From positions 1-33,427 of IMG/VR virus record IMGVR_UViG_3300046000_007766: a stretch of 33,427 bases of DNA. One strand, 5' to 3'. The first letter of the stretch is position 1. Every line of letters begins with the position of its first letter. A program made the position numbers and the translations under genes. Positions 3,530-30,920 of this stretch are shown here, in pieces. The notes below the pieces were generated by a model. The model was not told the origin of the DNA. It did no database searches and saw only the letters and a list, made by a program, of their open reading frames with translations. Origin of the DNA: a virus.

Positions 3530-3615
3530 GCTGCTGTGGTGAAATAGGTAGACACGAGGGACTTAAAATCCCTTGACCAGTGATGGTCGTGCCGGTTCGA
3601 TTCCGGCCAGCAGTA
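3530..3615 (+). tRNA. tRNA-Leu(TAA)
   Basis: 86 bases, class II. Acceptor GCTGCTG pairs with CAGCAGT (one G.T pair), anticodon loop CTTAAAA gives TAA, a long variable arm follows, and the T-loop is TTCGATT in a 5-bp GCCGG/CCGGC stem. Reads UUA, the main Leu codon of the phage genes. CCA is not encoded (A then CA). First gene of the array. Confidence 0.95.
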
Positions 3616-3635
3616 CAAAAACGTTCTTTAACATA

Positions 3636-3735
3636 TTGGTGGTAGTTAGACGAAAATGGAATTCCTGCTGTGATGTTAACTTAATCAGCATATTCAGAAG
3701 TAGAAATGAGGTACCGCAAATTCCTCGCCACCTAA
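3636..3735 (+). ncRNA. Structured spacer between tRNA-Leu and tRNA-Arg
   Basis: A possible closing stem TTGGTGG (3636-3642) with CCACCTAA (3728-3735, one bulged T) ends exactly 5 bases before tRNA-Arg. Inside are an interrupted stem TGC/TGAT with ATCA/GCA and GAGG/CCTC. The 3' end carries CGCCACCTAACT (3726-3737), an exact reverse complement of the first 12 bases of the Leu-like tRNA at 4732, so part of this spacer may be an inverted tRNA-like remnant. No coding sequence seen. Confidence 0.35.
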
Positions 3736-3740
3736 CTTAT

Positions 3741-3814
3741 GGTTCGATAGCTCAGCTGGATAGAGCAACAGCCTTCTAAGCTGTTGGTCACAGGTTCGAA
3801 TCCTGTTCGAATCA
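3741..3814 (+). tRNA. tRNA-Arg(TCT)
   Basis: 74 bases. Acceptor GGTTCGA pairs with TCGAATC, D-arm contains AGCTCAGCTGGATAGAGC, anticodon loop CTTCTAA gives TCT, T-loop TTCGAAT. Reads AGA, the dominant Arg codon of the phage. Confidence 0.95.
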
Positions 3815-3816
3815 CT

Positions 3817-3939
3817 AAGAGAGACAGTGAAGCTGTAATTGAGAAGTAGAGTGTATTAATTGCTGAAAAAGGGTTTATATTAGGTAGGCGTCACTCATTG
3901 CACTCAATCAGAAACCCTGAAAGACCCGAAGTCTCTCTT
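3817..3939 (+). ncRNA. Structured RNA between tRNA-Arg and tRNA-Tyr
   Basis: A 9-bp stem AAGAGAGAC (3817-3825) with GTCTCTCTT (3931-3939) encloses about 105 bases and ends exactly 5 bases before tRNA-Tyr. Inside, AGGGTTT (3870-3876) pairs with AAACCCT (3912-3918). In the loop of that stem, CTCAAT (3903-3908) is complementary to ATTGAG (3838-3843) outside it, which would make a pseudoknot. T-rich sequence follows the stem. No coding sequence. Confidence 0.45.
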
Positions 3940-3944
3940 TTTAT

Positions 3945-4027
3945 TGGAAGGTGGGTGAGTGGTTAAAACCGGCAGACTGTAAATCTGCTCCCTTACGGGT
4001 ACGGCGGTTCGAATCCGTCCCTTCCAA
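3945..4027 (+). tRNA. tRNA-Tyr(GTA)
   Basis: 83 bases, class II. Acceptor TGGAAGG pairs with CCTTCCA, D-stem GGT/ACC, anticodon region CAGACTGTAAATCTG gives GTA, a variable arm of CCC/GGG type, T-loop TTCGAAT. The U1-A72 pair is unusual for tRNA-Tyr, which normally begins with G; shifting the register by one loses a base pair. Confidence 0.92.
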
Positions 4028-4035
4028 CTAAACCT

Positions 4036-4112
4036 TGGCGTGTATCTCCTCAAGCTTATACCTTGTAGAAAGAGTAATTGGTCACATGAGAGTTCAAGTC
4101 TCTCCCCGCCAA
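4036..4112 (+). pseudogene. Decayed tRNA-like sequence
   Basis: TGGCGTG (4036-4042) pairs with CCCGCCA (4105-4111) except for one T/C mismatch, and a perfect T-arm GAGAG-TTCAAGT-CTCTC lies at 4088-4104, preceded by a TGGTCACAT variable-like segment. Between them no normal D-arm or anticodon arm can be folded. It follows tRNA-Tyr by 8 bases. It is either a decayed tRNA or a tRNA-like RNA with a changed central part. Confidence 0.4.
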
Positions 4113-4124
4113 CCTTTTATTAAA

Positions 4125-4156
4125 TTTGGAAATCAAAAAATTATTTTATATATTTA
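4125..4156 (+). promoter_or_regulatory. Promoter inside the tRNA array
   Basis: TTTGG at 4125-4129 and TATATTTA at 4149-4156, same 24-base pitch as the others and one of the two best matches in the window. It lies 32 bases before the lipoprotein start at 4189, and could also boost transcription of the downstream tRNAs. Confidence 0.75.
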
Positions 4157-4188
4157 TATAACACAAATATTAATTAATAAAAATAAAA

Positions 4189-4350
4189 ATGAAAAACGTA
4201 ATTTTCGCTTTGATCGCAGTCGCTACTTTGGCTGCTTGCTCAAACAGCACTGAGACTGCTGCTTGTGATTCATGTGCTACTGATTCTACTATGGTTGATT
4301 CAACTGTAGTTGATTCTATGGCTATTGATAGTTCAGTAGTTACAGAATAA
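4189..4350 (+). CDS. Small lipoprotein with DS repeats
   Basis: 53 residues starting at the ATG at 4189. MKNVIFALIAVATLAAC is a lipoprotein signal with lipobox LAAC (Cys17). The mature part is Ser/Thr/Asp/Val-rich: from residue 30 it has a 5-residue period, ATDST, MVDST, VVDSM, AIDSS, then VVTE. DST, DST and DSM fit the D-(S/T)-(A/I/L/M/T/V) O-glycosylation sequon known from Bacteroides. Similar tiny D-S-T lipoproteins are, as I recall, common in Bacteroidota hosts, so this is probably a host-derived 'moron' gene. It has its own promoter and is followed by tRNA spacer. Function unknown; envelope modification or superinfection exclusion would be possible. Confidence 0.8.
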   Translation: MKNVIFALIAVATLAACSNSTETAACDSCATDSTMVDSTVVDSMAIDSSVVTE

Positions 4351-4461
4351 TACTGAGTCTAGCCAAAAAATCCTGTTGCACTCGAACAGGTTGACCTCGG
4401 GGAAAAGTTAAAAAGGGGGAGTACGTGAACCGATATCGTCTTAGAACAAACCTCCCTATAA
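4351..4461 (+). other. Spacer before tRNA-Thr
   Basis: No coding sequence. GGGGG (4415-4419) can pair with CTCCC (4452-4456, one G.T), ending exactly 5 bases before tRNA-Thr, as in the other long spacers. The hairpin described at 4366-4390 lies in its first half. Confidence 0.35.
4366..4390 (-). terminator. Possible minus-strand terminator
   Basis: CCTGTT (4372-4377) pairs with AACAGG (4385-4390) across a 7-base loop, and six A's precede it on the + strand. Read on the minus strand this is a hairpin followed by T6. No minus-strand gene is known here, so it would only stop antisense transcription, or the match is chance. Confidence 0.3.
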
Positions 4462-4534
4462 GCCACCTTAGCTCAGTTGGTAGAGCTACTGATTTGTAAT
4501 CAGTAGGTCGGCGGTTCGAGTCCGTCAGGTGGCT
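4462..4534 (+). tRNA. tRNA-Thr(TGT)
   Basis: 73 bases. Acceptor GCCACCT/AGGTGGC, D-arm TTAGCTCAGTTGGTAGAGC, anticodon loop TTTGTAA gives TGT, T-loop TTCGAGT. Reads ACA. Followed after only 6 bases (CAAAAT) by tRNA-Met. Confidence 0.95.
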
Positions 4535-4540
4535 CAAAAT

Positions 4541-4612
4541 TGTGGGATAGAGCAGTGGTAGCTTGTTGGGCTCATAACCCAAAGGTCGGAGGTTCGAATC
4601 CTTCTCCCGCAA
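4541..4612 (+). tRNA. tRNA-Met(CAT), initiator-like anticodon stem
   Basis: 72 bases. Acceptor TGTGGGA/TCCCGCA, anticodon loop CTCATAA gives CAT, T-loop TTCGAAT. The anticodon stem has three consecutive G:C pairs (GGG/CCC) as in initiator tRNAs, but position 1 pairs with 72 (T-A), which bacterial initiators usually avoid. It may be an initiator or an elongator; a CAT anticodon could also be modified to read AUA. Confidence 0.9.
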
Positions 4613-4731
4613 CAAAAGCCCGAAGTACAAGGGAACGAAGATAGAGTAAGTCCTCTACGAAAGTATGAACCTCTCCAAATCGTGTGTTGGCACAGTTAGC
4701 AACTCTGGGGGTAATCTAAAAGTTGCAAAAT
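4613..4731 (+). other. Structured spacer before Leu-like tRNA 1
   Basis: 119 bases without coding sequence. Hairpins seen: TAGAG/CTCTA around 4644-4660 and GCAACT (4699-4704) with AGTTGC (4721-4726). The second ends exactly 5 bases (AAAAT) before the next tRNA-like gene. Confidence 0.35.
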
Positions 4732-4837
4732 AGTTAGGTGGCGGAATGGTAGACGCAAGGATAAGTGGTGAGGTGAGGCGGGTAATCCACCGTAGATACC
4801 ATATCCACGTATACAGGTTCGAATCCTGTCCTGACTA
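4732..4837 (+). tRNA. Leu-like tRNA with extended central arm (106 bases)
   Basis: Acceptor AGTTAGG pairs with CCTGACT, the D-arm GCGGAATGGTAGACGC is of tRNA-Leu type, and the T-arm is ACAGG-TTCGAAT-CCTGT. In place of a normal 17-base anticodon arm there is a long rod: GGATA/TATCC, then TGGT/ACCA, then GGTG/CACC around a loop of about 12 bases. No 7-base loop with U33 and a Leu anticodon can be found. It may carry an insertion that is removed, be a non-translating tRNA-like RNA, or be decayed. Its ends are nearly the same as those of the element at 4923. Confidence 0.6.
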
Positions 4838-4841
4838 CAAC

Positions 4842-4917
4842 GTGTTGTTCCCTTGAGAAAGGAATGTTATAAGTGGTTTTGACTGAGTACCAACAACACT
4901 AAGGACTTCTCATCCTT
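4842..4917 (+). ncRNA. Structured spacer with possible kissing loops
   Basis: GTGTTGTT (4842-4849) can pair with AACAACAC (4892-4899). Alternatively TTCC/GGAA (4848-4851 with 4861-4864) exposes TGAGAA (4854-4859) in its loop, and hairpin AAGGA/TCCTT (4901-4905 with 4913-4917) exposes the complementary TTCTCA (4907-4912). The last hairpin ends exactly 5 bases before the next tRNA-like gene. No coding sequence. Confidence 0.35.
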
Positions 4918-4922
4918 AAAAT

Positions 4923-5053
4923 AGTCAGGTGGCGGAATTGGTTAGACGCTACATAGATAGTCAACTACAACTGTAATAAACCCGCTGGCCACGGTTAATA
5001 AGAACAGCTCTGTCGTAGAGGTTGACATACAGGTTCGAATCCTGTCCTGATTA
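4923..5053 (+). tRNA. Leu-like tRNA with very large central domain (131 bases)
   Basis: Acceptor AGTCAGG/CCTGATT, Leu-type D-arm GCGGAATTGGTTAGACGC, T-arm ACAGG-TTCGAAT-CCTGT, all close to the element at 4732. The centre (about 75 bases) folds into nested stems: GTCAAC with GTTGAC, continued by TAC/GTA, then CTGT/ACAG, then ATAAACC with GGTTAAT (one mismatch). Only about 10 bases lie between the D-arm and this rod, too few for an anticodon arm. No credible anticodon is seen. It is likely a tRNA-like RNA, or a tRNA with an insertion. Confidence 0.6.
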
Positions 5054-5062
5054 CAAAATCCA

Positions 5063-5141
5063 GTGTTCGTGAGGTGTAAGCAACAGGAACGAAAACACCC
5101 TCATTAAATATGTTGCACGTGTAAGTAATGGAACCTTACAC
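5063..5141 (+). other. Structured spacer before tRNA-Ser
   Basis: Two hairpins and no coding sequence: GTGTTCGT (5063-5070) with ACGAAAACAC (5089-5098, bulged), and a 7-bp GTGTAAG (5119-5125) with CTTACAC (5135-5141). The second ends exactly 5 bases before tRNA-Ser. Confidence 0.4.
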
Positions 5142-5146
5142 AAATC

Positions 5147-5231
5147 GGAAGATTGGCAGAGTGGTCGATCGCGGCAGTCTTGAAAACTGTTGAACCGAAA
5201 GGTTCCGTAGGTTCGAATCCTACATCTTCCG
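5147..5231 (+). tRNA. tRNA-Ser(TGA)
   Basis: 85 bases, class II. Acceptor GGAAGAT/ATCTTCC, discriminator G as usual for Ser, anticodon loop CTTGAAA gives TGA, variable arm GAACC-GAAA-GGTTC, T-loop TTCGAAT. Reads UCA, very frequent in the tail genes. Confidence 0.95.
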
Positions 5232-5337
5232 CACCTTAATACCAATTCAGGTTCGTGAACAAAGGAGGCCTGTTCTTCTCGTGTAAGAAAGAAATCACGT
5301 TAAATCTCCTCATGCTAGGTGGAGGTGGTGACCTAGC
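5232..5337 (+). other. Structured spacer before tRNA-Gln
   Basis: No coding sequence. GAACA/TGTTC and CGTG/CACG hairpins are possible in the first half, and a clear 7-bp GCTAGGT (5314-5320) with ACCTAGC (5331-5337) ends exactly 5 bases before tRNA-Gln. Confidence 0.4.
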
Positions 5338-5342
5338 AACAT

Positions 5343-5413
5343 TACCCTCTCGTCTAACGGCAGGACAACTGGTTTTGGTCCAGTTAATTGGAGTTCGAAT
5401 CTCTGGGGGGTAA
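5343..5413 (+). tRNA. tRNA-Gln(TTG)
   Basis: 71 bases. Acceptor TACCCTC/GGGGGTA (one T.G), D-stem GTC/GAC, anticodon loop TTTTGGT gives TTG, T-loop TTCGAAT. Reads CAA. tRNA-Glu follows after 7 bases. Confidence 0.93.
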
Positions 5414-5420
5414 CAAAAAT

Positions 5421-5492
5421 GCTCGGTTCGTCTATCGGTTAGGACACCAGGTTTTCATCCTGGTAAGAGGGGTTCGATTCCCCTACCGAGTA
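5421..5492 (+). tRNA. tRNA-Glu(TTC)
   Basis: 72 bases. Acceptor GCTCGGT/ACCGAGT (one G.T), anticodon loop TTTTCAT gives TTC, T-stem AGGGG/CCCCT with loop TTCGATT. Reads GAA. Last tRNA of the array; the 87 bases after it hold the AT-rich leader of the secreted-protein gene, with no clear promoter box. Confidence 0.95.
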
Positions 5493-5579
5493 CAAATTCA
5501 AAAAAATTTTTCAATATGTATAAAGGACAATAGTGGTTTTTTCTAAGTGTTATTTGTTATTAATAACTTAAAACCAAAA

Positions 5580-7475
5580 ATGAAAAAACTAATTTTATCT
5601 TTAATGACCATGTTTATGGTCTTTTCTGCTTTTTCGCAGACTGTTCCTCCCGCTCCTGGTACAGGTAGATGGGTAATTGTAGACACAAATTACACAGTTG
5701 GTACATCTTCAGCTGGTGTTACTAAAGCAAATCTTTACTATCGAAACAACACAAGTACTAAAATTACTGGTATGCAGTTTCGTGTTTGGTATGATAAAGA
5801 TGCCTTTAATGGTTCTGCTCCTACGGTTGCTTTAAAATATGGTGCTACGGACCAATATATGCAGTATGTTACTAACACTACAGAAGGCAATATTACTGTA
5901 ACATTGGTTTATACTGGTACTAGTTCCACTTTTTCATATTCTGATGGTGCTGCTGTTGAAGTAACTTTAACACACGCGTCTGCAGCTACTTGGAATACTT
6001 TAGATAGTATTAAAACTATGAAAATTACAGGTACTACTACATTTAATAACTTAGCTGCTACTAATTACGGTAATGATACTACAATGACAGTTTATTCTTA
6101 TGGTGGTAACTTTATTCAACGTAAATTAACTTTTAAAGGTCGTTTCTTAACAGCTGCTGGTGATGGTGCTAAAAACTTATGGATTTCATTAGAAAAGAAA
6201 CCTAAAACAGGTTCAACTTGGACTACTGTAAACACATACAAGACTAATACTGCTGGTAGATTTAACTTTACAGAAACTTTAGATACAACATATTGGGATA
6301 CTCGTATTGCAATTAAAGGAGATACAATGTCTTATGGTAATGCTTTATCAACAGCAGACGCTCAAAAGATTAACCAAGTAATGTTAGGTCAATATACACC
6401 AACGGGATTTGATTTTTATGCAATGGATGTAAATGGAAATAATAGTATTACAATTGCAGATGCTTATTCTGTATTTGGTAATATTGCTGGTAGATTTACT
6501 TCATGGCCAAATAGTGTTCAAAACTTATTGTTCTTTACCAAAACTGAAAGAGATTCTATTAATGGTAAAACAGTAAGCAAAGCTGCTACAATTCCTGGTG
6601 CTACAAACTTCACACACTATATTAATGGTGGTGTTGATTCAGTTACATATTATGTAGTAGTTAAAGGTGATGCTAATTCAACTGGATTTAAAATGGCTCG
6701 TTTAACACCTATTAGAATTGTCAACCCAGCTAATGCTAACAGATATATTATAGATAATACCGTTCAATATGATAACGTTTTACAGACTATCGAAGTTAAC
6801 ATGCCTAAAATCAATGTTGAAGAAGGTAATTTAGTAAATATTCCTGTTAAAGTGTTTACAAATGGTAAAACATTAGGTGCATTACAATTAGATTTAAAAT
6901 ATGATACTGATTTACTTGAATTTAGAAAAGTAGAAAATAGTGAAAAAGCTATGAAATGGATCTCGTATGTAAACCCATCAAATGGTATTGTATCTTGGGG
7001 TGGATTTGATATACAAAATTCAAACATGTTAAATGATGGAGATCAAGTATTTACCTTACAATTTGTAGCTAAAAAACCTCAATCTGAGTGGGGTACTGCC
7101 GCCGTATGGACTGGCGAAAAATACGTGGGAGATAACGTCTCTAAAGACATGAATATAACTCCTGCAATGGGTATTATTGAGGTAAGAAAAATGGCTTATA
7201 GACCAAAAATTAATCCTGAATTATTTGAATTAAGAGCTACTCCTAATCCAAATGATGGCAATATGGTAATTAATTTTAACATTTTAGAAGAAGGAAAAAC
7301 TGAGGTTTCTATTTTTAATATGCAAGGACAAAAGGTAATTGAAGTTGTTAACGAAAACATGCCTAAAGGTGAATATGTATACTCAGTAAATTCATTATTA
7401 CCCGCAGGTATTTATTATGCCTCTGTAAATAATAATGGAAATTTTGCTACAAATAAAATTTTAATTAATAAATAA
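5580..7475 (+). CDS. Secreted cohesin/dockerin-like protein with T9SS sorting domain
   Basis: 631 residues from the ATG at 5580; the GTG at 5547 would only add residues before a clear signal peptide (residues 1-20, ending AFSQ). Domains: cohesin-like beta-sandwich (about 30-178); carboxypeptidase-regulatory-like beta domain (180-250); dockerin-like region (257-306) with a calcium-loop pattern at D283, N285, N287, D294; second cohesin-like domain (400-537: NIPVKVFTNGKTLGALQLDL..YDTDLLEF); and a type A T9SS C-terminal domain (549-631) with PNPNDG, VSIFNMQGQKV, AGIYYASV and terminal KILINK. Known T9SS substrates with this tail cross the outer membrane and become surface-attached or secreted. The phage would therefore use the host T9SS. 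Stop overlaps the next start (TAATG). Confidence 0.85.
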   Translation: MKKLILSLMTMFMVFSAFSQTVPPAPGTGRWVIVDTNYTVGTSSAGVTKANLYYRNNTSTKITGMQFRVWYDKDAFNGSAPTVALKYGATDQYMQYVTNTTEGNITVTLVYTGTSSTFSYSDGAAVEVTLTHASAATWNTLDSIKTMKITGTTTFNNLAATNYGNDTTMTVYSYGGNFIQRKLTFKGRFLTAAGDGAKNLWISLEKKPKTGSTWTTVNTYKTNTAGRFNFTETLDTTYWDTRIAIKGDTMSYGNALSTADAQKINQVMLGQYTPTGFDFYAMDVNGNNSITIADAYSVFGNIAGRFTSWPNSVQNLLFFTKTERDSINGKTVSKAATIPGATNFTHYINGGVDSVTYYVVVKGDANSTGFKMARLTPIRIVNPANANRYIIDNTVQYDNVLQTIEVNMPKINVEEGNLVNIPVKVFTNGKTLGALQLDLKYDTDLLEFRKVENSEKAMKWISYVNPSNGIVSWGGFDIQNSNMLNDGDQVFTLQFVAKKPQSEWGTAAVWTGEKYVGDNVSKDMNITPAMGIIEVRKMAYRPKINPELFELRATPNPNDGNMVINFNILEEGKTEVSIFNMQGQKVIEVVNENMPKGEYVYSVNSLLPAGIYYASVNNNGNFATNKILINK

Positions 7476-7837
7476 TGGCCATTAAAGATACTGTAAAAAA
7501 AGCATTAGGTTTTGATAAACCTGATTTTGTAAAAGTAGATGATAAAAATCGTTTCTACTTTATGTTACAACAAATGCAAAATAACCGTTGGAAAATTACG
7601 GTAATTGTATTAGGATTATTTTTCTTCATTATTGCTGGTATTAACTCTGCTGTTTTCTTTGGGATTGCTATCCAGGAATCTTGGAAAGAAATGTTACTTA
7701 TTCTTTTAGGTGCCTTTGTTGGTAACTTAAATAAGGTTGTGGATTACTGGTTCAATTCAGAGGATAGAGATAAAATGCTTATCCAAAAAGTTGACGAAGA
7801 AGATGGAACTACATTATCAAATACTTTAAACCCCTAA
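7475..7837 (+). CDS. Two-TM membrane protein, holin-like
   Basis: 120 residues with two hydrophobic segments at about 41-65 and 72-90, a charged N-terminal half-domain, and a short acidic C-terminal tail. The stretch LLGAFVGNLNKVVDYWFNS resembles small phage membrane proteins annotated as holins, with a conserved aromatic DYW after the second TM. It lies between the T9SS substrate and the export/lysis genes. A second two-TM candidate (11970) sits closer to the endolysin, so which one is the holin is open. Confidence 0.55.
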   Translation: MAIKDTVKKALGFDKPDFVKVDDKNRFYFMLQQMQNNRWKITVIVLGLFFFIIAGINSAVFFGIAIQESWKEMLLILLGAFVGNLNKVVDYWFNSEDRDKMLIQKVDEEDGTTLSNTLNP

Positions 7838-7841
7838 TAAA

Positions 7842-8165
7842 ATGTCAGAAGAAAAAGAAGAAAGCGTTATGTCAGCTACTAAAAAAGCCATTATTGGAGC
7901 TATTACTACAGCAGTTACTGCTGGTGGTGCTTGGTTCGCAACTCACTTAGGTGGAGGTGAAACAGAAGCTGAAGAAGGTACAAAAACAGAACAAGTAGCT
8001 CCGGCTCCTGTTATTGTAAATGTTCAACAAAGCCAAGAAAACAAACAGCAAGTTAAACAAGGTGGTGGAACAAACACCATTATCAAAGAGCGTGTAGTAG
8101 AAAAACCTGCTGCTACTCCTGCTCCTGCTAAAGCTGAACCTGCTAAAGAAGAAGATCCATGGTAA
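7842..8165 (+). CDS. One-TM protein with Pro/Ala-rich tail
   Basis: 107 residues. A charged N-terminus is followed by one hydrophobic segment (about 17-36, AIIGAITTAVTAGGAWFATH) and then a long hydrophilic tail rich in Glu, Gln, Pro and Ala (VQQSQENKQQVKQGGG, KPAATPAPAKAEPAKEEDPW). The layout recalls inner-membrane proteins whose tail spans the periplasm, such as TonB or i-spanins. Its last 7 bases overlap the start of the following lipoprotein gene, an arrangement seen in spanin pairs. No family is recognised. Confidence 0.6.
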   Translation: MSEEKEESVMSATKKAIIGAITTAVTAGGAWFATHLGGGETEAEEGTKTEQVAPAPVIVNVQQSQENKQQVKQGGGTNTIIKERVVEKPAATPAPAKAEPAKEEDPW

Positions 8166-8857
8166 AAAAATGGTTTAACAAATTCATGGCTCTTGTAGTT
8201 ATAACTCTTTCTGGTTGTGGTTCTATGAAAACTACAACTGAAAAAGATGTTATTGAAACTAAAGACATTTCAACAGTATCAAATTATACAGATAGCTTAA
8301 AATATGCTGTACAAGTAGTAAATGTTGATATGACTAAAGTTTTATCCCTCTACCCTGATCTCCAGGAAAAAGGAGTAGGTTTAGGATTTGCCGAGTCAGT
8401 ACTTGATTATTTAGATGAAACAAATAGATTTATATTCACCGAAGAAAAATCGGAGATCAAAGAACGTATGGTTACTCAGTTCAAAGCTTCTAAAAAAGGA
8501 GTCTTCGAAGAGCCCATTGATGGAAAGGGTAAGATTAAAGCTGCTCGTTACTTTGTTTATGTTACTGTGGCCGATTTTGCTGTTGATGAAGACGAAACCG
8601 TTCAAGGTGGTAAAGCAAAAGTTGTTGTTACTACGTTCATACGTTTACAAGTTCGCTTTGTTGATGCCATGACAGGTCAAATCTATATTGGTTCTGGGGA
8701 AGGTGAAGCTACTAAAGTTGGTGAATCTTTCTTAAAATCATTAGATGGGATGAAATTCTCTCAAAGCACTGTTGGTAAGGCAACTCGTAAATCTTTAGAA
8801 ACTGCAAGTACTAAAGTAATCGAAAACCTTATTAAGAACGGTGTCTTTAAAAATTAA
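8159..8857 (+). CDS. CsgG-like outer-membrane lipoprotein
   Basis: 232 residues. Signal with lipobox LSGC (Cys20). The mature protein follows the CsgG pattern: KYAVQVVNVD strand, GLGFAESVLDYLDETNRF helix (like the A..L...L...GRF of CsgG), AARYFVYVTVADF, then VVVTTFIRLQVRFVDAMTGQ with IYIGSGEGEA, and a C-terminal VGKATRKSLETASTKVIENL helix. CsgG forms the nonameric outer-membrane pore that secretes curli subunits. No CsgA, CsgB, CsgE or CsgF is recognised here. The gene overlaps a one-TM protein upstream (7 bases) and a signal-peptide protein downstream (17 bases), so the three are translationally linked. It is a good candidate for a phage-encoded outer-membrane channel; whether the membrane-spanning hairpins are intact cannot be told by eye. 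Confidence 0.75.
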   Translation: MVKKWFNKFMALVVITLSGCGSMKTTTEKDVIETKDISTVSNYTDSLKYAVQVVNVDMTKVLSLYPDLQEKGVGLGFAESVLDYLDETNRFIFTEEKSEIKERMVTQFKASKKGVFEEPIDGKGKIKAARYFVYVTVADFAVDEDETVQGGKAKVVVTTFIRLQVRFVDAMTGQIYIGSGEGEATKVGESFLKSLDGMKFSQSTVGKATRKSLETASTKVIENLIKNGVFKN

Positions 8858-10250
8858 AATATTAATACTATTTTTACTTGGAGGGTTGTCTCTTTACGGA
8901 CAATCCTTCATGTATTCTTATACAGATCCCTGTACTAGAGAATTAAAAACTTTAACTTATGATATGTCTACTCCAGTAGTAGTTTCATATTATGGTAGAG
9001 TTAGAGCATTTACTTATAACGAAATACAAACAGGAGTATTTGATGCTTGGATTAATGATATTTTTAGTCAAGTACAAACTAGTCCCTGTCAAGGAGTTTT
9101 AACTTCAACAACTACTACATCAACAACAAATTTAACAACAAATATTATCAATACGGTTTTGAATTTAAATTCCATTACTGCTATTACTTCAATAGGAGGA
9201 ATTAGTAATAACTTGGGAGGTACTGTAAATCTTGGAACAAATTCAAACAACAATGAACAAAATAACAATAGCAACAATAGTAACTCTAGTAATAACAATG
9301 CTTCTTCTAATAGCTCAAGCTCTAATCCCGGCAATGGTAATAATGGTGGTGAGTCTGGTAATGGTGGCTCTAACAATAGCAACCCTCCCGGAGGCGGAAA
9401 TACAGGAGGAAATGGAGGAAATTCCGGTGGAGGATCTAACGGAGGATCAGAGACGGGCGGAACTGGGTCTGGAGGTAACTCCGGAGGGACAGTACAGAAC
9501 GATACCAAAGAAGGGACCACACCTACGAAAGAGGAAATAAAAGAAACTAAAGTTGAAGAACAAAAATCTTCATCAAATAATGTTTCAAAATCCACTTCTA
9601 AAGCAAAAACCGAAACTCAAAAACCTGCTATTCTTTTAACAGGAGATATTGTTGGTCTTCAAAAAACTGAAGATGGTTCTCAAGATGCTAGAGGTACATT
9701 TTCCTATACTCGTGTAAAGGGAGATGGAAGTGCATCCTTAGGTTTATCAGCTGATTATATGCTCCGTGCTAAAATTAGTAATATTACTATTATGAGATCT
9801 TGGATTGGTATTAAAGATAATGGTAATAAACATATAAACCTTATATCAAGCGGTTTCTCTATAATGCCGGGGTCTATATCGAATACATCGATGTTTATTC
9901 GTATAAACAGTCTAAAACGGTTTACTGCGCTTTATGGTGCTGCGGCATCATATGGTAAATTATATCAAGAAGAACTTATATCCGGTTTAGCAATTGCTGG
10001 TTTTATGTATAAGGGAAAAATAGCTAAAAAAATTGATGGAACAATAATAATGGCTGGTGTTTATTCTCCCTATACAAAATATTATACAGCTGATTGGTTT
10101 AAATCAAGACCTATTATAGTCCCATTTTTTAATTTTAATTATAAGATGACTAAAACATTTGGTATTGGTTTAACAGGAGGTACTACTTATATGGCGGGGC
10201 AAAACGTGTTAAACTATCAAGTATTATGTGGCGCAAAATTAATCTTATAA
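8841..10250 (+). CDS. Exported protein: N-terminal domain, Asn/Gly-rich linker, C-terminal barrel-like domain
   Basis: 469 residues from a GTG start at 8841; no ATG is available before the clear signal peptide (about 1-20, LILFLLGGLSLYGQ), and the start overlaps the CsgG-like gene by 17 bases. Residues 22-86 form a small domain with Cys31 and Cys83. A Thr-rich stretch and a low-complexity Asn/Ser then Gly-rich linker (about 130-226) follow, then a Lys/Glu/Thr segment. Residues 265-469 are rich in alternating beta strands and end GAKLIL, like an outer-membrane beta-barrel. Next to the CsgG-like gene it could be its partner or cargo. No family recognised; tail fibre is a less likely alternative because of the signal peptide. 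Confidence 0.7.
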   Translation: MSLKIKILILFLLGGLSLYGQSFMYSYTDPCTRELKTLTYDMSTPVVVSYYGRVRAFTYNEIQTGVFDAWINDIFSQVQTSPCQGVLTSTTTTSTTNLTTNIINTVLNLNSITAITSIGGISNNLGGTVNLGTNSNNNEQNNNSNNSNSSNNNASSNSSSSNPGNGNNGGESGNGGSNNSNPPGGGNTGGNGGNSGGGSNGGSETGGTGSGGNSGGTVQNDTKEGTTPTKEEIKETKVEEQKSSSNNVSKSTSKAKTETQKPAILLTGDIVGLQKTEDGSQDARGTFSYTRVKGDGSASLGLSADYMLRAKISNITIMRSWIGIKDNGNKHINLISSGFSIMPGSISNTSMFIRINSLKRFTALYGAAASYGKLYQEELISGLAIAGFMYKGKIAKKIDGTIIMAGVYSPYTKYYTADWFKSRPIIVPFFNFNYKMTKTFGIGLTGGTTYMAGQNVLNYQVLCGAKLIL

Positions 10251-11305
10251 TATTACTTTTATTAGGGATTAAGATTTATGCTCAATCTCCTTTATGTGCC
10301 AGTAGACCTACAACGTTTTGTTGTGAGTATGTTTCTAGTGTAACTATTAATGGTAGAACATTTGCTGGTAGTACTGGATTCTCAAATACCTCCGGAGGTA
10401 GTCCTGCTGGTTATTATGATTATGCTTATACAGCGGATACAGTCCCTAGAATTAAAGCAGGACAAAGTATATCTATTTCATATACAGCTGTTACAAATGG
10501 TAATTATATGGAATATTTTAAACTTTGGATTGACTTTAATGGTAATGGAGTGTTAACAGATGCTGGTGAGTTGGTTCATAGTTCAAATTATCAATGGACA
10601 GGTACTAAAACTGTTACATCTACTTTTACAGTTCCTACCTCTGTTTATAATGGAGAAGTTTATATGAGATTTGTAATGCAATACTCAGGTTCTCCTACTA
10701 TTTGTGGAACATATCCTTATGGAAATACATTTGATTTTAAAACTAGAATTGTTGGTGCTACAGATCCTTTTTCATATTCAGGTTACATTTATAACTCTGA
10801 GGGAGTAGGAGTACAAAATATACCAGTTAAATTTTATTCTAAATTAAAATCTTCTTCTACTTATACTTTTGAAAGTACTATTAATACAGATGCAAATGGT
10901 AAATATGCTATCTCATCTACTAAAGACGCTACAGTTTATGATTTTCAAATCGAAATCAGTAGCTTAACTATTTCATCTCCTGCTGTTAGTGATGCTCAAT
11001 CATTTAATCAAAAAGTATTAAGTCGATCTTTTAATGCTAGAGACTATTATAGAATGGATGTTAATAATGATGATAATTTAACTATTACAGATGTTTATTT
11101 AGTTTATGCTAAAATAATAGGTAGAGCATGGAGAAGTCCGGTTCCAAATTATCGGATTTTCACCCCAACCGAGTGGAATACTATTAATACTTCATCATCT
11201 AATCTTAAATCAACCTACTCAGGAACTCAAACTATTACTGTATCTGGAGTGTCTAATAAAGGTAGTTCTAATTATTATTTATTTCGTACAGGTTATAGGA
11301 ATTAA
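10226..11305 (+). CDS. Secreted GEVED-domain protein with dockerin-like module
   Basis: 359 residues, start overlapping the previous gene by 25 bases. Signal peptide 1-20 (ending IYAQ). Residues about 30-175 match the GEVED domain of Bacteroidota secreted proteins (YFKLWIDFNGNGVLTDAGEL, NGEVYMRFVMQY), with Cys24, Cys32, Cys33 and Cys160 possibly in disulfides. Then a beta domain (183-245) and a dockerin-like region (256-305) with D278, N280, D282, D289 in the calcium loop. The beta plus dockerin part is related to that of the 5580 protein (RMDVNNDDNLTITDVYLVYAKIIGR is similar to its AMDVNGNNSITIADAYSVFGNIAGR counterpart, each quoted in part). It lacks a T9SS tail, so its exit past the outer membrane would need another route. 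Confidence 0.75.
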   Translation: MWRKINLIILLLLGIKIYAQSPLCASRPTTFCCEYVSSVTINGRTFAGSTGFSNTSGGSPAGYYDYAYTADTVPRIKAGQSISISYTAVTNGNYMEYFKLWIDFNGNGVLTDAGELVHSSNYQWTGTKTVTSTFTVPTSVYNGEVYMRFVMQYSGSPTICGTYPYGNTFDFKTRIVGATDPFSYSGYIYNSEGVGVQNIPVKFYSKLKSSSTYTFESTINTDANGKYAISSTKDATVYDFQIEISSLTISSPAVSDAQSFNQKVLSRSFNARDYYRMDVNNDDNLTITDVYLVYAKIIGRAWRSPVPNYRIFTPTEWNTINTSSSNLKSTYSGTQTITVSGVSNKGSSNYYLFRTGYRN

Positions 11306-11314
11306 TATTTATAA
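11304..11314 (+). promoter_or_regulatory. AATATTTATAA motif at a gene start
   Basis: One of three exact copies of this 11-mer in the window, 2 bases before the ATG at 11317. That is too close for a -10 promoter box with a leader, so an RNA-level role or a leaderless message should be considered. Confidence 0.25.
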
Positions 11315-11316
11315 GT

Positions 11317-11757
11317 ATGTTAGCAATCTTATTACCTTTATTTTTATCTACTTCTAACCCTTGCTATAAAGTAGATACTGTTTACAATTATACATCTATT
11401 GAAACTGTTGGTGACAGAAATGTTACTTTTGGTGTGAAAGAGACTACTGAAGAAATTGCCTCTGATAATGGATTTCAATTATGCGAAACTGCTGATAAAA
11501 ATATTAGTGTTGAAATAATAAAAATTGAATCCCCAGAACAAATTGTTAACATCGTTGGTATGCAATGGTTAAAAAAAGATTACATTGTAAAAGTAGTTGT
11601 AACCATTGATGGTAAAAGTTACGAAGAAGAATCTAAAAAGAGTACATTTTTGTTTGCCGCTTTATTAAATGTAGAAGATAATAAAATACCACTTAATAAA
11701 AAAGTATTTTCAAAAACATTAGAATCTGCCTTAAAAAGTGCTTTTAAAAAAATATAA
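11317..11757 (+). CDS. Small exported protein of unknown function
   Basis: 146 residues. The short hydrophobic N-terminus MLAILLPLFLSTSNPC looks like a minimal signal peptide. The rest alternates strands and charged turns (NISVEIIKIES, KKDYIVKVVVTIDGKSYEEESK) and ends with an amphipathic helix (FSKTLESALKSAFKKI). This order, strands then a final A..A helix, is seen in small envelope lipoproteins and in the CsgG/LptE-like fold space, but I cannot place it in a family. It follows the export cassette and may be an accessory component. Confidence 0.6.
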   Translation: MLAILLPLFLSTSNPCYKVDTVYNYTSIETVGDRNVTFGVKETTEEIASDNGFQLCETADKNISVEIIKIESPEQIVNIVGMQWLKKDYIVKVVVTIDGKSYEEESKKSTFLFAALLNVEDNKIPLNKKVFSKTLESALKSAFKKI

Positions 11758-11766
11758 TATTTATAA
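11756..11766 (+). promoter_or_regulatory. AATATTTATAA motif before 11788
   Basis: Second exact copy of the 11-mer, overlapping the stop region of the preceding gene and 21 bases before the ATG at 11788. No TTTG box is present 24 bases upstream. Confidence 0.3.
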
Positions 11767-11787
11767 TAAACAATAATTTGATTACTT

Positions 11788-11970
11788 ATGCTTAAGAAAT
11801 TTTGGAATTGGTTGCTCGGTAAAACTACTATTGACGAAAAAGTAGTTGAAGTAACTAAAGAAATAAAAAAAGAAGCTGAGGTTGTAAAAGAAAAAATTCA
11901 AAAAGAAGTTGTTGGAGAAAAAGTTGCCTATAAAAAGCGCAAACCTAGAACTCCTAAAACAACTAAATAA
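11788..11970 (+). CDS. Small Lys/Glu-rich protein
   Basis: 60 residues. An N-terminal amphipathic MLKKFWNWLLGK is followed by a Val/Glu/Lys heptad-like helix (EVTKEIKKEAEVVKEKI) and a basic, Pro-containing tail KKRKPRTPKTTK. It could associate with a membrane surface or nucleic acid. No family recognised. Joined to the next gene by TAATG. Confidence 0.55.
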   Translation: MLKKFWNWLLGKTTIDEKVVEVTKEIKKEAEVVKEKIQKEVVGEKVAYKKRKPRTPKTTK

Positions 11971-12227
11971 TGAAAAATTTTTTTAAACAACTATTTGACG
12001 ACAAAAACTCAATTAACGAAAAAGCCATTGTTGGTTTCGTTGCCTTTATGTGCTTAGTTTTAGCATTACTTATCGACCTTATAACAGGTTATATGGGAAA
12101 TGCTTTAGTACTTAATGAATTTATTTTTGATGGATTTATGGTCCTAGTATTAGGTTCATTTGGTATTGCATCTGTTGATAAATGGATGAACAAAAAAGAT
12201 AAGAAAAACGAAGAAACTGAAGAATAA
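11970..12227 (+). CDS. Putative holin (two TM)
   Basis: 85 residues with two hydrophobic segments (about 19-40 and 50-68) and a highly charged C-terminus (KWMNKKDKKNEETEE), the usual look of a small class II holin. It is immediately upstream of, and coupled by TAATG to, the GH19 endolysin, which makes the lysis role plausible. Function is inferred from topology and position only. Confidence 0.6.
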   Translation: MKNFFKQLFDDKNSINEKAIVGFVAFMCLVLALLIDLITGYMGNALVLNEFIFDGFMVLVLGSFGIASVDKWMNKKDKKNEETEE

Positions 12228-12838
12228 TGAGTTTAAAAAGTTTACAAGAGAAGATCGGAGTAGCAGCTGATGGTGCTTTCGGTCCAGGTACAATGAAAAA
12301 AGCAATGGAGTTTTATAAATTATCTCCTATTCGTGCTGCTCATTTTTTTGCTCAAACATCACATGAAACAGGTGGTTTTAAAGCATTTTCAGAAAACTTA
12401 AATTATTCAGCTCAAGGTTTACAAGGTATCTTTGGAAAATATTTTCCCGGTAATCTAGAAGAGTCTTATGCCCGCCAACCAGAAAAAATTGCTAACCGTG
12501 TTTATGCCTCTAGAATGGGTAACGGAGATGAAGCATCTGGTGATGGATGGAAATTTAGAGGTAGAGGTGCTCTTCAATTGACTGGTAAAGCTAATTATGA
12601 AGCTTTTGCTAAATTTTTAAATAATAACGAGGTCTTAACTGATCCTGACACAGTTGCTACTAAGTATGCCTTTGAATCAGCTATGTTCTTCTTTGAAAGA
12701 AATAAGCTATGGGCTATTTGTGATAAAGGTATTAACGATGCTTCAATTTTAGAACTTACAAAACGAATTAACGGAGGTACTCACGGTTTAGAAGATAGAA
12801 AAACTAAAACTTACAAATATTACGAATACGTTAAATAA
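12227..12838 (+). CDS. GH19 endolysin (chitinase/lysozyme family)
   Basis: 203 residues. Residues 1-30 look like a short peptidoglycan-binding-like start (LQEKIGVAADGAFGPGT). The GH19 catalytic core follows: AHFFAQTSHETGGF with catalytic Glu47, a second acidic residue Glu56 in FSENLNY, and GRGALQLTGKANY. Phage GH19 enzymes cleave the glycan strands of peptidoglycan. There is no signal peptide, so it needs a holin. Coupled by TAATG on both sides. It provides the muramidase activity absent from the gp5-like spike downstream. Confidence 0.88.
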   Translation: MSLKSLQEKIGVAADGAFGPGTMKKAMEFYKLSPIRAAHFFAQTSHETGGFKAFSENLNYSAQGLQGIFGKYFPGNLEESYARQPEKIANRVYASRMGNGDEASGDGWKFRGRGALQLTGKANYEAFAKFLNNNEVLTDPDTVATKYAFESAMFFFERNKLWAICDKGINDASILELTKRINGGTHGLEDRKTKTYKYYEYVK

Positions 12839-13428
12839 TGGGATACTCAAAAGAAAAAATAGAAGGAGCTGTAAAATCAAAAGGATATGCTTGGTTTGAA
12901 GGCGAAAAAGATTTCGATGTAAACATCGTTGGTGTTAGAAATTCCGCTACCGGAAATAAAGTAACTAACGTTTTTGATGACGTTATGACACTTTCTTACA
13001 AAGAAGGTGGTGTGTGGAAATATCATGAATGGCCCTGCACTACTGATCCAGGAACTAAAGGTGTTAAAGAATACCACAATGCAGCTGGGGTTGCTCGTTT
13101 AGTTGAAGGTCAATATAGAGGTTCACACACCCTAGGTTTACACCAAGGAAAATACGAAGCTTTAAAACAACAAAAACCAGTTAAAGTTTATCGTGATGCT
13201 AACAAAGACATGACTTATGATGAGTCAAAAATCCAAGAAGGTATCTTCGGTATTAATATCCATAAAGCAGGTGCAGATTCTACTTACGTAGAAAACTGGT
13301 CTGAAGGATGTCAAGTGTTTAAAAAAGCAGCTGATTTTGAATCATTTATGGCTATTGCTCGTAAAGCAGCCGCTATTCATGGTAAATCATTTACTTATAC
13401 ACTTATCGAATCTTCCGATATAAAATAA
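12838..13428 (+). CDS. YkuD-motif (L,D-transpeptidase-like) peptidoglycan enzyme
   Basis: 196 residues. The C-terminal part contains GINIHKAG...WSEGCQVF, with His142, Ser155, Gly157 and Cys158, the HX(12-17)SxGC signature of the YkuD fold. Upstream are GVARLVEGQYRG, TLGLHQGKYEAL and PVKVYRDANKD, patterns I associate with phage relatives that sit next to lysins. No signal peptide. It probably cuts or exchanges peptide crosslinks and works together with the GH19 enzyme, to which it is coupled by TAATG. Hydrolase and transpeptidase roles cannot be separated from the sequence. Confidence 0.65.
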   Translation: MGYSKEKIEGAVKSKGYAWFEGEKDFDVNIVGVRNSATGNKVTNVFDDVMTLSYKEGGVWKYHEWPCTTDPGTKGVKEYHNAAGVARLVEGQYRGSHTLGLHQGKYEALKQQKPVKVYRDANKDMTYDESKIQEGIFGINIHKAGADSTYVENWSEGCQVFKKAADFESFMAIARKAAAIHGKSFTYTLIESSDIK

Positions 13429-16033: not shown

Positions 16034-16369
16034 ATGTCACAATTCGATAACGTTGTTTTTGGTAAGAAAAAATTCTCTGATATTTTAGAGGAAATTTATA
16101 ATAACCAAAAGAAAAAAGACCAACAAGTTACAGCTCTTATTTCCGAACTAAAACCACTAATTTCAGATATTGGTGATGCTACTTTAGTTGTTCCTTTAAT
16201 TAAGGAATATATGGAAATTAGTGTTAAAAACGATGATATTTTAATTAAAATGGCTGCGTTAGCACAACGTGCTATGCAAACCCAAACCGCAGAAGGTAAT
16301 CTAACCATTTCTGAAGAAGAAAAAGAACAACTTCTTTCTGCTATGAATGAATTAAAAGGAGAAAAATAA
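16034..16369 (+). CDS. Conserved hypothetical phage protein (111 aa)
   Basis: 111 residues, helical, soluble (FGKKKFSDILEEIYNNQKKKD, a DATLVVPLIKEYMEISVKND stretch). It sits directly before the spike gene and is coupled to it by TAATG, so it probably belongs to the tail/baseplate module as an assembly factor or minor component. No family recognised. Confidence 0.6.
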   Translation: MSQFDNVVFGKKKFSDILEEIYNNQKKKDQQVTALISELKPLISDIGDATLVVPLIKEYMEISVKNDDILIKMAALAQRAMQTQTAEGNLTISEEEKEQLLSAMNELKGEK

Positions 16370-17601
16370 TGACTCAATATGGATTTTCTTCTTTAAACCA
16401 AAATCTTAATTCAAATGCTAATAATAACTTTAATGTTAATACAGCGGCTTCTGTAAATGAAGTAGTACAAGCTGTAAGAGTATTAAGTATAGTTTTAGAT
16501 GAAAATCACCCTAAATTTAAAGAATTAGGTGAATGGAATGCTTTAGGTACAATTGAATATGAAGTTGTAAACAATCCTTTACCATCTCCATCATTACCCA
16601 CAGCTAAACCTTTAGATCCTAATAATAAAAATTTCCCATTAGTAAATGAAATAGTCTATATTATTTCTTTACCTTCAACTGATTTAAATACAATTACTTC
16701 AAATAGTATTAATTATTATATTAATATTGTTTCTCTTTGGAACCACCCCCATCATAACGCTTATCCAACAGATCCTAATCTTTTACCTCCATCTCAACAA
16801 AAAGATTACATCCAAACTGAAACCGGTAATGTTAGGAGAATAACAGATCAATCTACTGAAATCTATTTAGGTAGAACATTTAAAGAACGTTCAAATATTC
16901 ATCCAATTTTACCATTTGAAGGTGATATAATTTATGAAGGTAGATGGGGTAATAGTATAAGAATTGGTTCTACAGTACCTAATACTTCTAATAACTGGTC
17001 TTCAACAGGATCTTCTGGTGACCCTATTACTATCATCAGAAATGGTCAAGGAACTCAAACAGAAGAAGGATGGATACCAACAGTTGAAGATATTAATAAT
17101 GATGATTCTTCAATTTATCTAGCTTCGACCCAAAAAGTTCCTTTAAAGGCCTCAAGTACTAACTACTTTAGTTATAAAAACAATGCACCACAAACTCCAG
17201 AGCAATATTCTGGTAAACAAGTGATTTTAAATTCTGGTAGATTAGTATTTAACACAACTGCTGATCATTTATTATTTAGCTCTAAAAAATCCATTAACTT
17301 AAATGCTGTAGATGGTGTTAATATTGATACCCCAACAATAGTTTTCCAATCAGGAAATGTGTATATAGGTTCAAAAAATGCAACTGAACCTTTACTATTA
17401 GGAAACCAAACCGTAAACTTACTAAACCAGTTAATTTCAAATTTAGCATCATTTGCACAAGTTTGTAGTATATTAGTTTCTACCCCTCCAGGAACTCCAA
17501 TAGCACCTTTAAATATAGCTGCTACTCAATTACAAGGTTCCCTAAACGCTTTACAAGCTAATTTAAATAATTTAAAATCAAAATATAATTATACAGTATA
17601 A
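16369..17601 (+). CDS. gp5-like baseplate spike protein
   Basis: 410 residues. After an Asn-rich N-terminus, residues about 30-160 look like the OB-fold part of a spike (VVQAVRVLSIVLDE, LVNEIVYIISLPS). PFEGDIIYEGRWGNSIRIGS at about 180 is the classic gp5/VgrG-type turn. Later repeats (SGKQVILNSGRLVFN, HLLFSSKKSINLNAVDG, DTPTIVFQSGNVYIGS) form the beta-helix stem. The C-terminus is helical. Unlike T4 gp5 it has no lysozyme domain. The protein would be the membrane-piercing needle of the baseplate hub. Confidence 0.8.
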   Translation: MTQYGFSSLNQNLNSNANNNFNVNTAASVNEVVQAVRVLSIVLDENHPKFKELGEWNALGTIEYEVVNNPLPSPSLPTAKPLDPNNKNFPLVNEIVYIISLPSTDLNTITSNSINYYINIVSLWNHPHHNAYPTDPNLLPPSQQKDYIQTETGNVRRITDQSTEIYLGRTFKERSNIHPILPFEGDIIYEGRWGNSIRIGSTVPNTSNNWSSTGSSGDPITIIRNGQGTQTEEGWIPTVEDINNDDSSIYLASTQKVPLKASSTNYFSYKNNAPQTPEQYSGKQVILNSGRLVFNTTADHLLFSSKKSINLNAVDGVNIDTPTIVFQSGNVYIGSKNATEPLLLGNQTVNLLNQLISNLASFAQVCSILVSTPPGTPIAPLNIAATQLQGSLNALQANLNNLKSKYNYTV

Positions 17602-18536
17602 TGGCTACTCCAATTGAATTAGATCAAATTAGATTAGAAGAATTAGCCAAAGCAGAAAAACAATCTGCCCAAGCAAACCAAAAAACTGTAGATAATACGT
17701 TAATTATAAGTGCTTTACCTGAAGATCAAAAACCCAAAGGAACAGCAAAATTACCCTCATTATTGTTTAGTTTAGGATCTCAAATCCCTCAAATTATTCA
17801 ACCCTCATTACAAAATTTAATAAACCAATACATCCAAGATATTGATATTTGTCCAAATGAGGTAACATTAAATGAATTAATTACTCAAAGAAATAATATT
17901 GCTCAATCATTAAATAATATAGGTGTTAGAGTTGATCAATTAGGTTCTTCAATAACGGGTGTATCTAATTTTTTAACTGTAACTTTAGCCCTTTTAACAT
18001 CTGTAGATGTAGCATCAGTAATAGCATCTGCTGCCGCTAAAATACTTCCTGTAGCCCCCGGAGCTGTTCCTGCTGCTTTAAACGATGCTCAAACTCTCAT
18101 AAGAAAAACTACTTTTGATAAATTAGGAAATTCTAAATTATCTAAAATTCAAGGTGTAATAAGTAGTTCTGCGTTAGTTATTTCTATTGTAGGAACTTAT
18201 ATTTTAACAGCTAAAAGTTTATTAGATATTATAGATTCTTATATAAATAAATGCCAATTAAATCCTAATATTATACCAATATCGGATACTGTTAATTCTA
18301 TAGCCACCGCCCAATTACAAGCATCTCAAACCCAAAACCAAACAACATACCAGGGTTTTATTATAGAAATAGAAGAAGTTCCATACACACCTACTGTAAC
18401 TAGAAGACGTGCTGTTGGAAAAAATCAAACAGGTATTATATTGATTCAAACAGAATTGTCATTTACAACAAATTCACAAACTTTAATAAATGAACTTAAA
18501 TTCATTATCGATAGAGATAATTTAAAAGCTTACTAA
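17601..18536 (+). CDS. Tail/baseplate-associated structural protein (311 aa)
   Basis: 311 residues. A Gln-rich charged start, then long helical and hydrophobic stretches (FLTVTLALLTSVDVASVIAS, VISSSALVISIVGTYILTA) and a beta-rich C-terminus (YQGFIIEIEEVPYTPTVTRR, TGIILIQTELSFTT). Position between the spike and gp25 suggests a hub or tail-interior component that could insert into the host membrane during DNA delivery. No firm homology by eye. Confidence 0.6.
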   Translation: MATPIELDQIRLEELAKAEKQSAQANQKTVDNTLIISALPEDQKPKGTAKLPSLLFSLGSQIPQIIQPSLQNLINQYIQDIDICPNEVTLNELITQRNNIAQSLNNIGVRVDQLGSSITGVSNFLTVTLALLTSVDVASVIASAAAKILPVAPGAVPAALNDAQTLIRKTTFDKLGNSKLSKIQGVISSSALVISIVGTYILTAKSLLDIIDSYINKCQLNPNIIPISDTVNSIATAQLQASQTQNQTTYQGFIIEIEEVPYTPTVTRRRAVGKNQTGIILIQTELSFTTNSQTLINELKFIIDRDNLKAY

Positions 18537-18540
18537 TTTT

Positions 18541-18551
18541 AATATTTATAA
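18541..18551 (+). promoter_or_regulatory. AATATTTATAA motif at a gene start
   Basis: Third exact copy of the 11-mer, 3 bases before the ATG at 18555. As at 11304, the distance is short for a normal promoter. Confidence 0.25.
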
Positions 18552-18554
18552 ACA

Positions 18555-18902
18555 ATGAAACCATCAGATTTTAAAAAAATTATTAAGGAAGCCGTAAAAG
18601 AAGCTATTCAAGAGGAATTAAAAGATATCCTGTTGGAAGCTGTACGTGCTCCTAAAACGGTTGTTAATGAAACCATAAGAGATACATACGCTCAACCACA
18701 TATTTCTCAACCAAAACAATTAACAGCTTCAGAACGCAGAGACATGTTCTCAGGAATTTTAGGTGAAATGCAAATGGGAAATCCAGCCACCTCAGCATAC
18801 GCTGGTAATTTACAAGTAGGTGGACCTGTAGATACTGTTAATGGATCGTTACCTGAAGGACAAGTAGGTTTAGATCAAATAATGGCTTTAATGAATAAAT
18901 AA
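18555..18902 (+). CDS. Small virion-module protein (115 aa)
   Basis: 115 residues: amphipathic N-terminal helix (DFKKIIKEAVKEAIQEELKD), a middle with TASERRDMFSGILGEMQMG, and a Gly-rich C-terminus ending LDQIMALMNK. Short proteins with this KEAI.EEL start are, in my memory, frequent in T4-like structural clusters, but no function is assigned. Coupled by TAATG to gp25. Confidence 0.6.
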   Translation: MKPSDFKKIIKEAVKEAIQEELKDILLEAVRAPKTVVNETIRDTYAQPHISQPKQLTASERRDMFSGILGEMQMGNPATSAYAGNLQVGGPVDTVNGSLPEGQVGLDQIMALMNK

Positions 18903-21168: not shown

Positions 21169-21172
21169 GACA

Positions 21173-28163: not shown

Positions 28164-28177
28164 AGTCAAACTCATAT

Positions 28178-28187
28178 ATATTTATAA
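28178..28187 (+). promoter_or_regulatory. ATATTTATAA motif before 28207
   Basis: Copy of the recurring 10-mer in the 43-base gap after the giant gene, 19 bases before the ATG at 28207. It is the best-placed candidate for a late promoter in the structural cluster: real gap, plausible leader, no TTTG box. Confidence 0.4.
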
Positions 28188-28206
28188 CAAAAACATTTAA
28201 TTTAAA

Positions 28207-28869: not shown

Positions 28870-28879
28870 AACATAGACT

Positions 28880-29932: not shown

Positions 29933-29937
29933 AATGA

Positions 29938-30918: not shown

Positions 30919-30920
30919 TT

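Follow-up and report, generated by a model that had tools for sequence, protein, structure and literature searches.

The 33,427-base window analysed here, which is the whole of the IMG/VR virus record IMGVR_UViG_3300046000_007766, carries at positions 5580–11757 of its plus strand a phage gene cassette whose conserved core comprises an exported scaffold-like protein with a cohesin domain and a type IX secretion system (T9SS) sorting tail (COH), a protein with one transmembrane (TM) segment (1TM), a lipoprotein of CsgG fold (CSG), an exported protein with a beta-rich C-terminal domain (BAR), an exported protein with a carbohydrate-binding-type head and a dockerin-like tail (DOCK), and a small exported protein (SM). 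We propose that this cassette may well be a phage-encoded means of surface display, in which a cohesin–dockerin scaffold, placed on the infected cell with the help of a CsgG-fold outer-membrane adaptor, would promote adhesion or block superinfection, a reading to which we give about even credence. The initial annotation of the window had described an outer-membrane export or envelope-opening unit built around a CsgG-like pore and beginning at 7475. Its six open reading frames, their order and their overlaps of 7 (8159–8165), 17 (8841–8857) and 25 bases (10226–10250) were borne out, as were, by inspection, its exported proteins and lipoprotein (signal peptides in BAR, DOCK and SM; lipobox GCGSMK in CSG); the true start of the unit lies at 5580, COH having been overlooked.

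To define the cassette by its conservation, loci were collected in three scans anchored on CSG, with at most the best 80 matches listed per scan, and contigs were considered eligible if CSG was flanked by 4 kb or more on both sides (119 of 188 contigs). The core, taken as COH (fused or split), 1TM, CSG, BAR, DOCK and SM on the same strand within 6.5 kb, was complete in 119/119 eligible viral contigs (46/46, 57/57 and 16/16 in the three sets) and in 46/46 after dereplication at 97% CSG identity. Because CSG had served to select this set, we counted again starting from other core genes: all 38 BAR-anchored loci with enough flank (of 75 newly fetched) and all 26 SM-anchored loci with enough upstream sequence (of 67 newly fetched) contained the remaining core genes, many of these contigs overlapping with the CSG-anchored set. 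The six-gene association is far above chance, and the annotation passes the test of co-occurrence elsewhere that had been named for it in advance, as it does the second such test, a relationship to CsgG. The two-TM, holin-like protein (2TM, 7475–7837; phrog_38564 of unknown function, E 6.7e-4), originally counted as a cassette member, did not survive as part of the core, since it is present in only 73 of the 119 contigs and is placed before or after 1TM/CSG depending on the contig; the other non-core genes are a holin-like gene (32 contigs), an endolysin (55) and a phrog_3000-type gene (49).

Immuto, a Flavobacterium phage of 160 kb represented by four records (on Flavobacterium sp. LMO8, Baltic Sea), is the nearest cultured relative of the window, with 44% identity in the CsgG-like protein and 46% in the baseplate protein. 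A scan of 50,697 phage records recovered the cassette's CsgG-like gene in 4, all of this one species, and a GTDB scan, made by two peptide patterns only, so that bacterial relatives may have been missed, recovered one contig carrying the gene at 86% identity (L230, RFPL01000028.1; 16.5 kb, from a Sphingomonadaceae metagenome-assembled genome), which is probably a mis-binned phage contig. As far as these searches reach, the suggested restriction to phages of this group holds. When records were instead gathered by the baseplate protein, CSG was found in 4 of 14, among them both records above 100 kb; the ten without it are fragments measuring 20–89 kb. No CSG, T9SS tail or cohesin match was obtained in Microcystis phage Mel-JY01 (PP395634.1) or in LR756508, which share the baseplate protein of the window at 46% and 39%, respectively.

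Evidence for a surface role comes from COH (5580–7475), for which an ATG start at 5580 is favored over a GTG at 5547 and whose end reaches one base into the 2TM gene. It contains a cohesin domain at ~6792–7157 (Pfam PF00963, E 9.6e-11, 42.5 bits against a cut-off of 24.1), a dockerin-like calcium loop at ~6426–6461 and a T9SS C-terminal sorting tail at ~7242–7466 (Por_Secre_tail, E 4.2e-8). Among 30 dereplicated fused COH proteins, the T9SS tail was matched in 30, the cohesin in 27 and Dockerin_1 in 10 at E ≤ 0.05, and the calcium-loop pattern was present in 21/29. Each of 12 large records holds exactly one T9SS tail, over the cut-off, in COH and within 2 kb of CSG; a cohesin is likewise present in all 12, of which 10 show a further cohesin match at the N-terminus, and in immuto COH is split into gp14 and gp15. 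This protein points to surface display rather than to envelope opening. Lectin-type domains are common on virions, and COH and DOCK might alternatively end up decorating the particle; we regard this as very improbable, because signal peptides are seen by inspection in COH, BAR, DOCK and SM, COH bears a T9SS tail, and the immuto cassette is located among replication genes, remote from the baseplate gene at 82 kb.

DOCK (10226–11305) joins a GEVED head at ~10514–10741, recognized correctly in the initial annotation (E 2.7e-14), to an immunoglobulin (Ig)-like part and a dockerin-like tail with a calcium loop at ~11057–11092. Exactly one DOCK is found in 264/265 loci. By Pfam, the heads of 46 dereplicated DOCK proteins are Lectin_C (27), GEVED (10), LamG (7) or PA14 (3); BLAST clustering, which lumped all the heads into two clusters, was abandoned in favor of these counts. 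Across the family, a conserved dockerin-like tail is combined with exchangeable heads of carbohydrate-binding type. The dockerin assignment itself stands in part: one canonical calcium loop occurs in the tails of 41 of the 46 relatives compared with 0.0004 in shuffled sequences, whereas Pfam Dockerin_1 recognizes only 3 of them at E ≤ 0.01. At the same threshold, none of the 46 gave a T9SS tail match. DOCK and COH share the Ig/dockerin-like part, as evidenced by tblastn cross-matches at ~30%. A diversity-generating retroelement was considered as the source of lectin change and rejected, no reverse transcriptase match being found in any of the 12 large records.

The relationship of CSG (8159–8857) to CsgG, as first annotated, is upheld by fold and by remote profile comparison, whereas PF03783 itself is a weak witness: it has no match in the window protein by Pfam scan, reaches E ≤ 10 in 8 of 49 family members, the best at 1.9e-4, and its curated cut-off was passed by none of 6 records. 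A first AlphaFold model, built from 20 rows of which 19 are at least 81% identical to the window, had a predicted local distance difference test score (pLDDT) of 38.6 and was not used; a second, built from 61 rows, reached a pLDDT of 67.7 and a predicted template-modelling score of 0.60. With the latter model, the best 17 rows of a Foldseek search against the PDB were all CsgG (E 4.4e-7 to 3.4e-6, probability 1.00) and the best BFVD match was a phage CsgG (E 3.7e-6). Superposition by VIA gave a Z of 12.6 over 165 residues (root-mean-square deviation 3.6) for CsgG, followed by Cj1090c (11.1), LptE (9.8) and PelC (9.5); as the match lists also hold many other lipoproteins (LptE, PelC, PqiC), no family is excluded by its absence from them. 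These matches support the CsgG fold of CSG well.

Profile–profile comparisons suggest which CsgG proteins CSG resembles. The 49-row family matched 15 CsgG-family proteins, mostly curli-type, at P 0.0026 over 170 columns, and the 61-row family matched a curli core of 12 at P 0.067 and non-curli CsgG-domain proteins of Pseudomonadota at P 1e-5 (best subgroup 1.6e-6), with reversed-family controls at P 0.28–0.6 against the curli and non-curli sets; against a mixed curli and non-curli set the family gave P 2.6e-5 and its reverse 0.0052. By sequence, CSG is nearer to the non-curli CsgG-domain lipoproteins than to curli CsgG. A search of the CSG profile against PDB sequences returned no rows. LpoB (TIGR02722) received no clear support as an identity for CSG: 9 of 49 members matched (best 4.1e-6), but the stretch in the window protein is the signal region, residues 8–55, a second scan matched none of 10 members, and hhalign gave P 0.013 over the signal region only.

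A CsgG-type oligomeric outer-membrane pore secreting DOCK, BAR or SM would agree with the rank of CsgG above all other folds, and true CsgG and CsgF are carried by pelagimyophages and Melnitz. Phage-borne CsgG is indeed described for pelagiphages (HTVC008M) and Melnitz (PMC7029224, PMC9599517, PMC9004378), in keeping with the remark in the initial annotation that other marine phages have such genes. The loop geometry of CSG is nevertheless that of the non-curli group. Spans were measured in 54 of 61 family rows, using residues that we take to form the hairpins of curli CsgG. The span containing TM hairpin 1 is 38–39 residues in CSG, 38 in the nearest non-curli group and 44–45 in most curli CsgG, where one row lacks the anchor, the first value is missing for another, and the anchor seems to have slipped in four cases (31 in three, 48 in one). 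The hairpin 2 span is 25–28 residues in CSG, 27 in the non-curli group and 39–40 in curli CsgG, in which the anchor lies 3 residues further on, leaving loop 2 of CSG ~9 residues shorter. Loop 1 of CSG further contains an invariant acidic residue, E144, with D145 and E146 nearly so, and the lipid-anchor Cys, scored by eye, is present in 20/20 window-clade rows and 21/40 immuto-clade rows (the mis-cut row L010 left out), being missing in about half of the latter clade. Together with the weak match of CSG to the curli profile and the lack of a CsgF match in the BAR N-terminus, these features make a secretion pore unlikely. Because both curli-pore loops are shortened in CSG, it does not appear to hold the two full-length transmembrane hairpins of the curli channel, and the pore originally proposed is not supported.

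A related arrangement, in which CSG is a periplasmic partner like PelC or LptE and BAR is the actual channel or an autotransporter-like anchor, draws on the constant association of CSG with BAR and on the fact that its fold neighbors PelC and LptE partner outer-membrane barrels (for PelBC, see PMC12141448). We consider it a shade less probable still than a CSG pore, since BAR is only a candidate barrel and has no solved relative by sequence. BAR (8841–10250) has an N-terminal domain with a conserved Cys pair, a long Asn/Gly/Ser linker and a conserved C-terminal beta-rich domain, a possible candidate for an outer-membrane barrel. The barrel-like end previously read from its sequence could not be confirmed, as a beta-moment test was no better than for a control protein and the last residue is F in only 21 of 135 sequences. 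The BAR N-terminus was rejected as a CsgF (profile P 0.2), and SM (11317–11757) as a CsgG relative (signal-peptide alignments only, or P 0.02–0.25). Against PDB sequences the BAR profile gave 9 rows and the SM profile 1, all weak or low-complexity. 1TM (7842–8165) has its one TM segment at the N-terminus, followed by a disordered Pro/Ala/Glu-rich tail, and ends in PW, overlapping the start of CSG. The reported absence of curli subunits was confirmed within the Pfam and profile tests made, no Pfam match to curlin or CsgF being found in ten window proteins (5547–12838).

With these parts, surface display could proceed as follows. COH would be exported by Sec and then by the host T9SS to the outside of an infected Bacteroidota cell, where it would serve as a scaffold. 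DOCK, with its lectin-, GEVED-, PA14- or LamG-type head, would plug its dockerin-like tail into the COH cohesin, and the dockerin of COH itself could chain scaffolds. CSG, BAR and SM may form a ring or adaptor at the periplasmic face of the outer membrane that acts as an assembly or export factor and passes or anchors DOCK, the partner without a T9SS tail, much as HfaB does for HfaA and HfaD or PelC does under PelB, with 1TM linking the CSG complex to the inner membrane. The resulting coat would bind surface glycans and either block superinfection or keep cells and released virions together. The candidate purposes are superinfection blocking, aggregation and attachment to polysaccharide, of which the first two seem likeliest because the heads are swapped. 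The fuller form of this proposal, namely a cellulosome-like scaffold that hijacks the host T9SS, takes an exchangeable lectin-type head through a dockerin and brings its own CsgG-fold assembly factor to build a superinfection-blocking or cell-gathering coat, is more tentative. Median identities to the window, taken over those of loci L002–L080 with a match, are 88% for CSG (79 loci), 80% for 2TM (64), 68% for 1TM (78), 60% for BAR (73), 56% for COH (79), 42% for SM (70) and 32% for DOCK (79), the last lowered by head swapping and cross-matches. The inner parts are conserved and the presumed outer parts variable, as for a surface under selection.

Several observations weigh against surface display. 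The cohesin–dockerin pairing within the cassette is argued from sequence, and Pfam Dockerin_1 (PF00404) matches are weak in DOCK as well as in COH; the barrel nature of BAR is tentative; SM evolves fast, without explanation; and a Flavobacterium host is known for immuto only. Lysis-type genes (endolysin, holin-like or phrog_3000, on either strand) also lie within 6.5 kb of the cassette in 92/119 contigs. In the window, the stretch from 5580 to 13428 is read in one direction throughout, its genes overlapping or separated by at most 30 bases, and the cassette continues into a second holin-like two-TM protein (11970–12227), a GH19-type endolysin (12227–12838; Pfam PF00182, E 3.4e-8; PHROG 181 endolysin, E 3.1e-60) and an accessory endolysin-related protein (12838–13428; phrog_3000, with a weaker match to phrog_33083, E 5.8e-11), which adjoin the cassette as non-core genes. 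The cassette could on these grounds be part of a lysis module, spanin-like or outer-membrane-disrupting, and lysis timing is among the roles that the Melnitz authors propose for their CsgG. We nonetheless judge this improbable and weaker than surface display, as neither a T9SS-sorted cohesin protein nor swappable lectin heads are obviously needed for lysis, and in three of the ten large records with an endolysin match, namely immuto and those of L155 and L156, the endolysin is 29–37 kb away although the cassette is intact. In the other seven it lies ~3.5–5 kb from CSG (distances worked out manually from the ranges of the loci); no endolysin was matched in two partial records.

Elsewhere in the window, eight transfer RNA genes (3530–5493) lie directly upstream of the cassette, and a Bacteroidota promoter pattern, of presumed consensus, gave 2 matches compared with 2.6 expected, neither of them upstream of the cassette. 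A baseplate-wedge protein (PHROG 219) and a DNA primase are encoded, and a large tail/baseplate block (16369–31556) includes a 1,855-residue protein (22596–28163) and several Ser/Thr-rich proteins. A nucleotidyltransferase resembling heptose 1-phosphate adenylyltransferase (690–1127; PHROG 7878, E 9.3e-38) possibly acts on host surface sugars. The protein at 12838–13428 contains an SEGC motif that to us is reminiscent of YkuD transpeptidases. Mel-JY01, whose stated host is a cyanobacterium, shares the GH19 endolysin (51%) with the Bacteroidota-type phage group of the window. We also note that the phage record OR851715.1 ('Salmonella phage', 1,499 bases) is mostly bacterial csgG at 95.7% and is likely a mislabelled bacterial fragment.

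To our knowledge, the cassette would be the first phage use of cohesin–dockerin parts and of the T9SS route, and our searches of openly licensed literature turned up no report of cohesin/T9SS cassettes in phages. The same cassette is present in a cultured phage as immuto gp13–gp19 (MW353175), of which GenBank names gp15 as cohesin and gp13 as C-type lectin and the rest as hypothetical; it differs from that of the window in having COH split into two genes, a C-type lectin head instead of GEVED, and no 2TM. Surface display would assign a role to genes that are widespread but mostly carry the label hypothetical in GenBank, and the cultured pair of immuto and Flavobacterium sp. LMO8 makes it directly testable. 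In the cellulosome, a cohesin on the scaffold receives a dockerin on the partner, and the present cassette is alike in its scaffold cohesin and in the dockerin-like module on a partner with carbohydrate-binding-type heads; it differs in having one or two cohesins, in being phage-encoded, in its T9SS tail and, by Pfam, in the lack of a catalytic domain in the window copy. As to the adaptor, PMC6707917 describes Caulobacter HfaB, periplasmic and CsgG-like, as required for surface placement of the adhesins HfaA and HfaD. HfaB is the nearest functional precedent for CSG, although an HfaB-like set, so labelled here, is not close to CSG by profile (P 0.21) and HfaABD has neither cohesin nor T9SS. 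The PelB–PelC exopolysaccharide exporter, as described in PMC12141448, places a lipoprotein ring of related fold under an outer-membrane barrel; its likeness to CSG is one of fold, with BAR as the candidate barrel.

The closest known kind of system is the curli cluster of pelagiphages. Pelagiphages and Melnitz are likewise large T4-like phages that combine a CsgG-fold protein with surface-directed proteins, for which their authors propose sibling capture, superinfection defence, import or lysis timing. They carry true curli CsgG, CsgF and curlin-repeat genes, whereas the present cassette has a non-curli type of CsgG and no CsgF or curlin match, adds cohesin, dockerin-like and T9SS parts, and has no other part detectably in common with theirs. 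If the proposal is correct, the cassette would represent, beside pelagiphage curli, a second and separately built way for large aquatic phages to rebuild the host surface.

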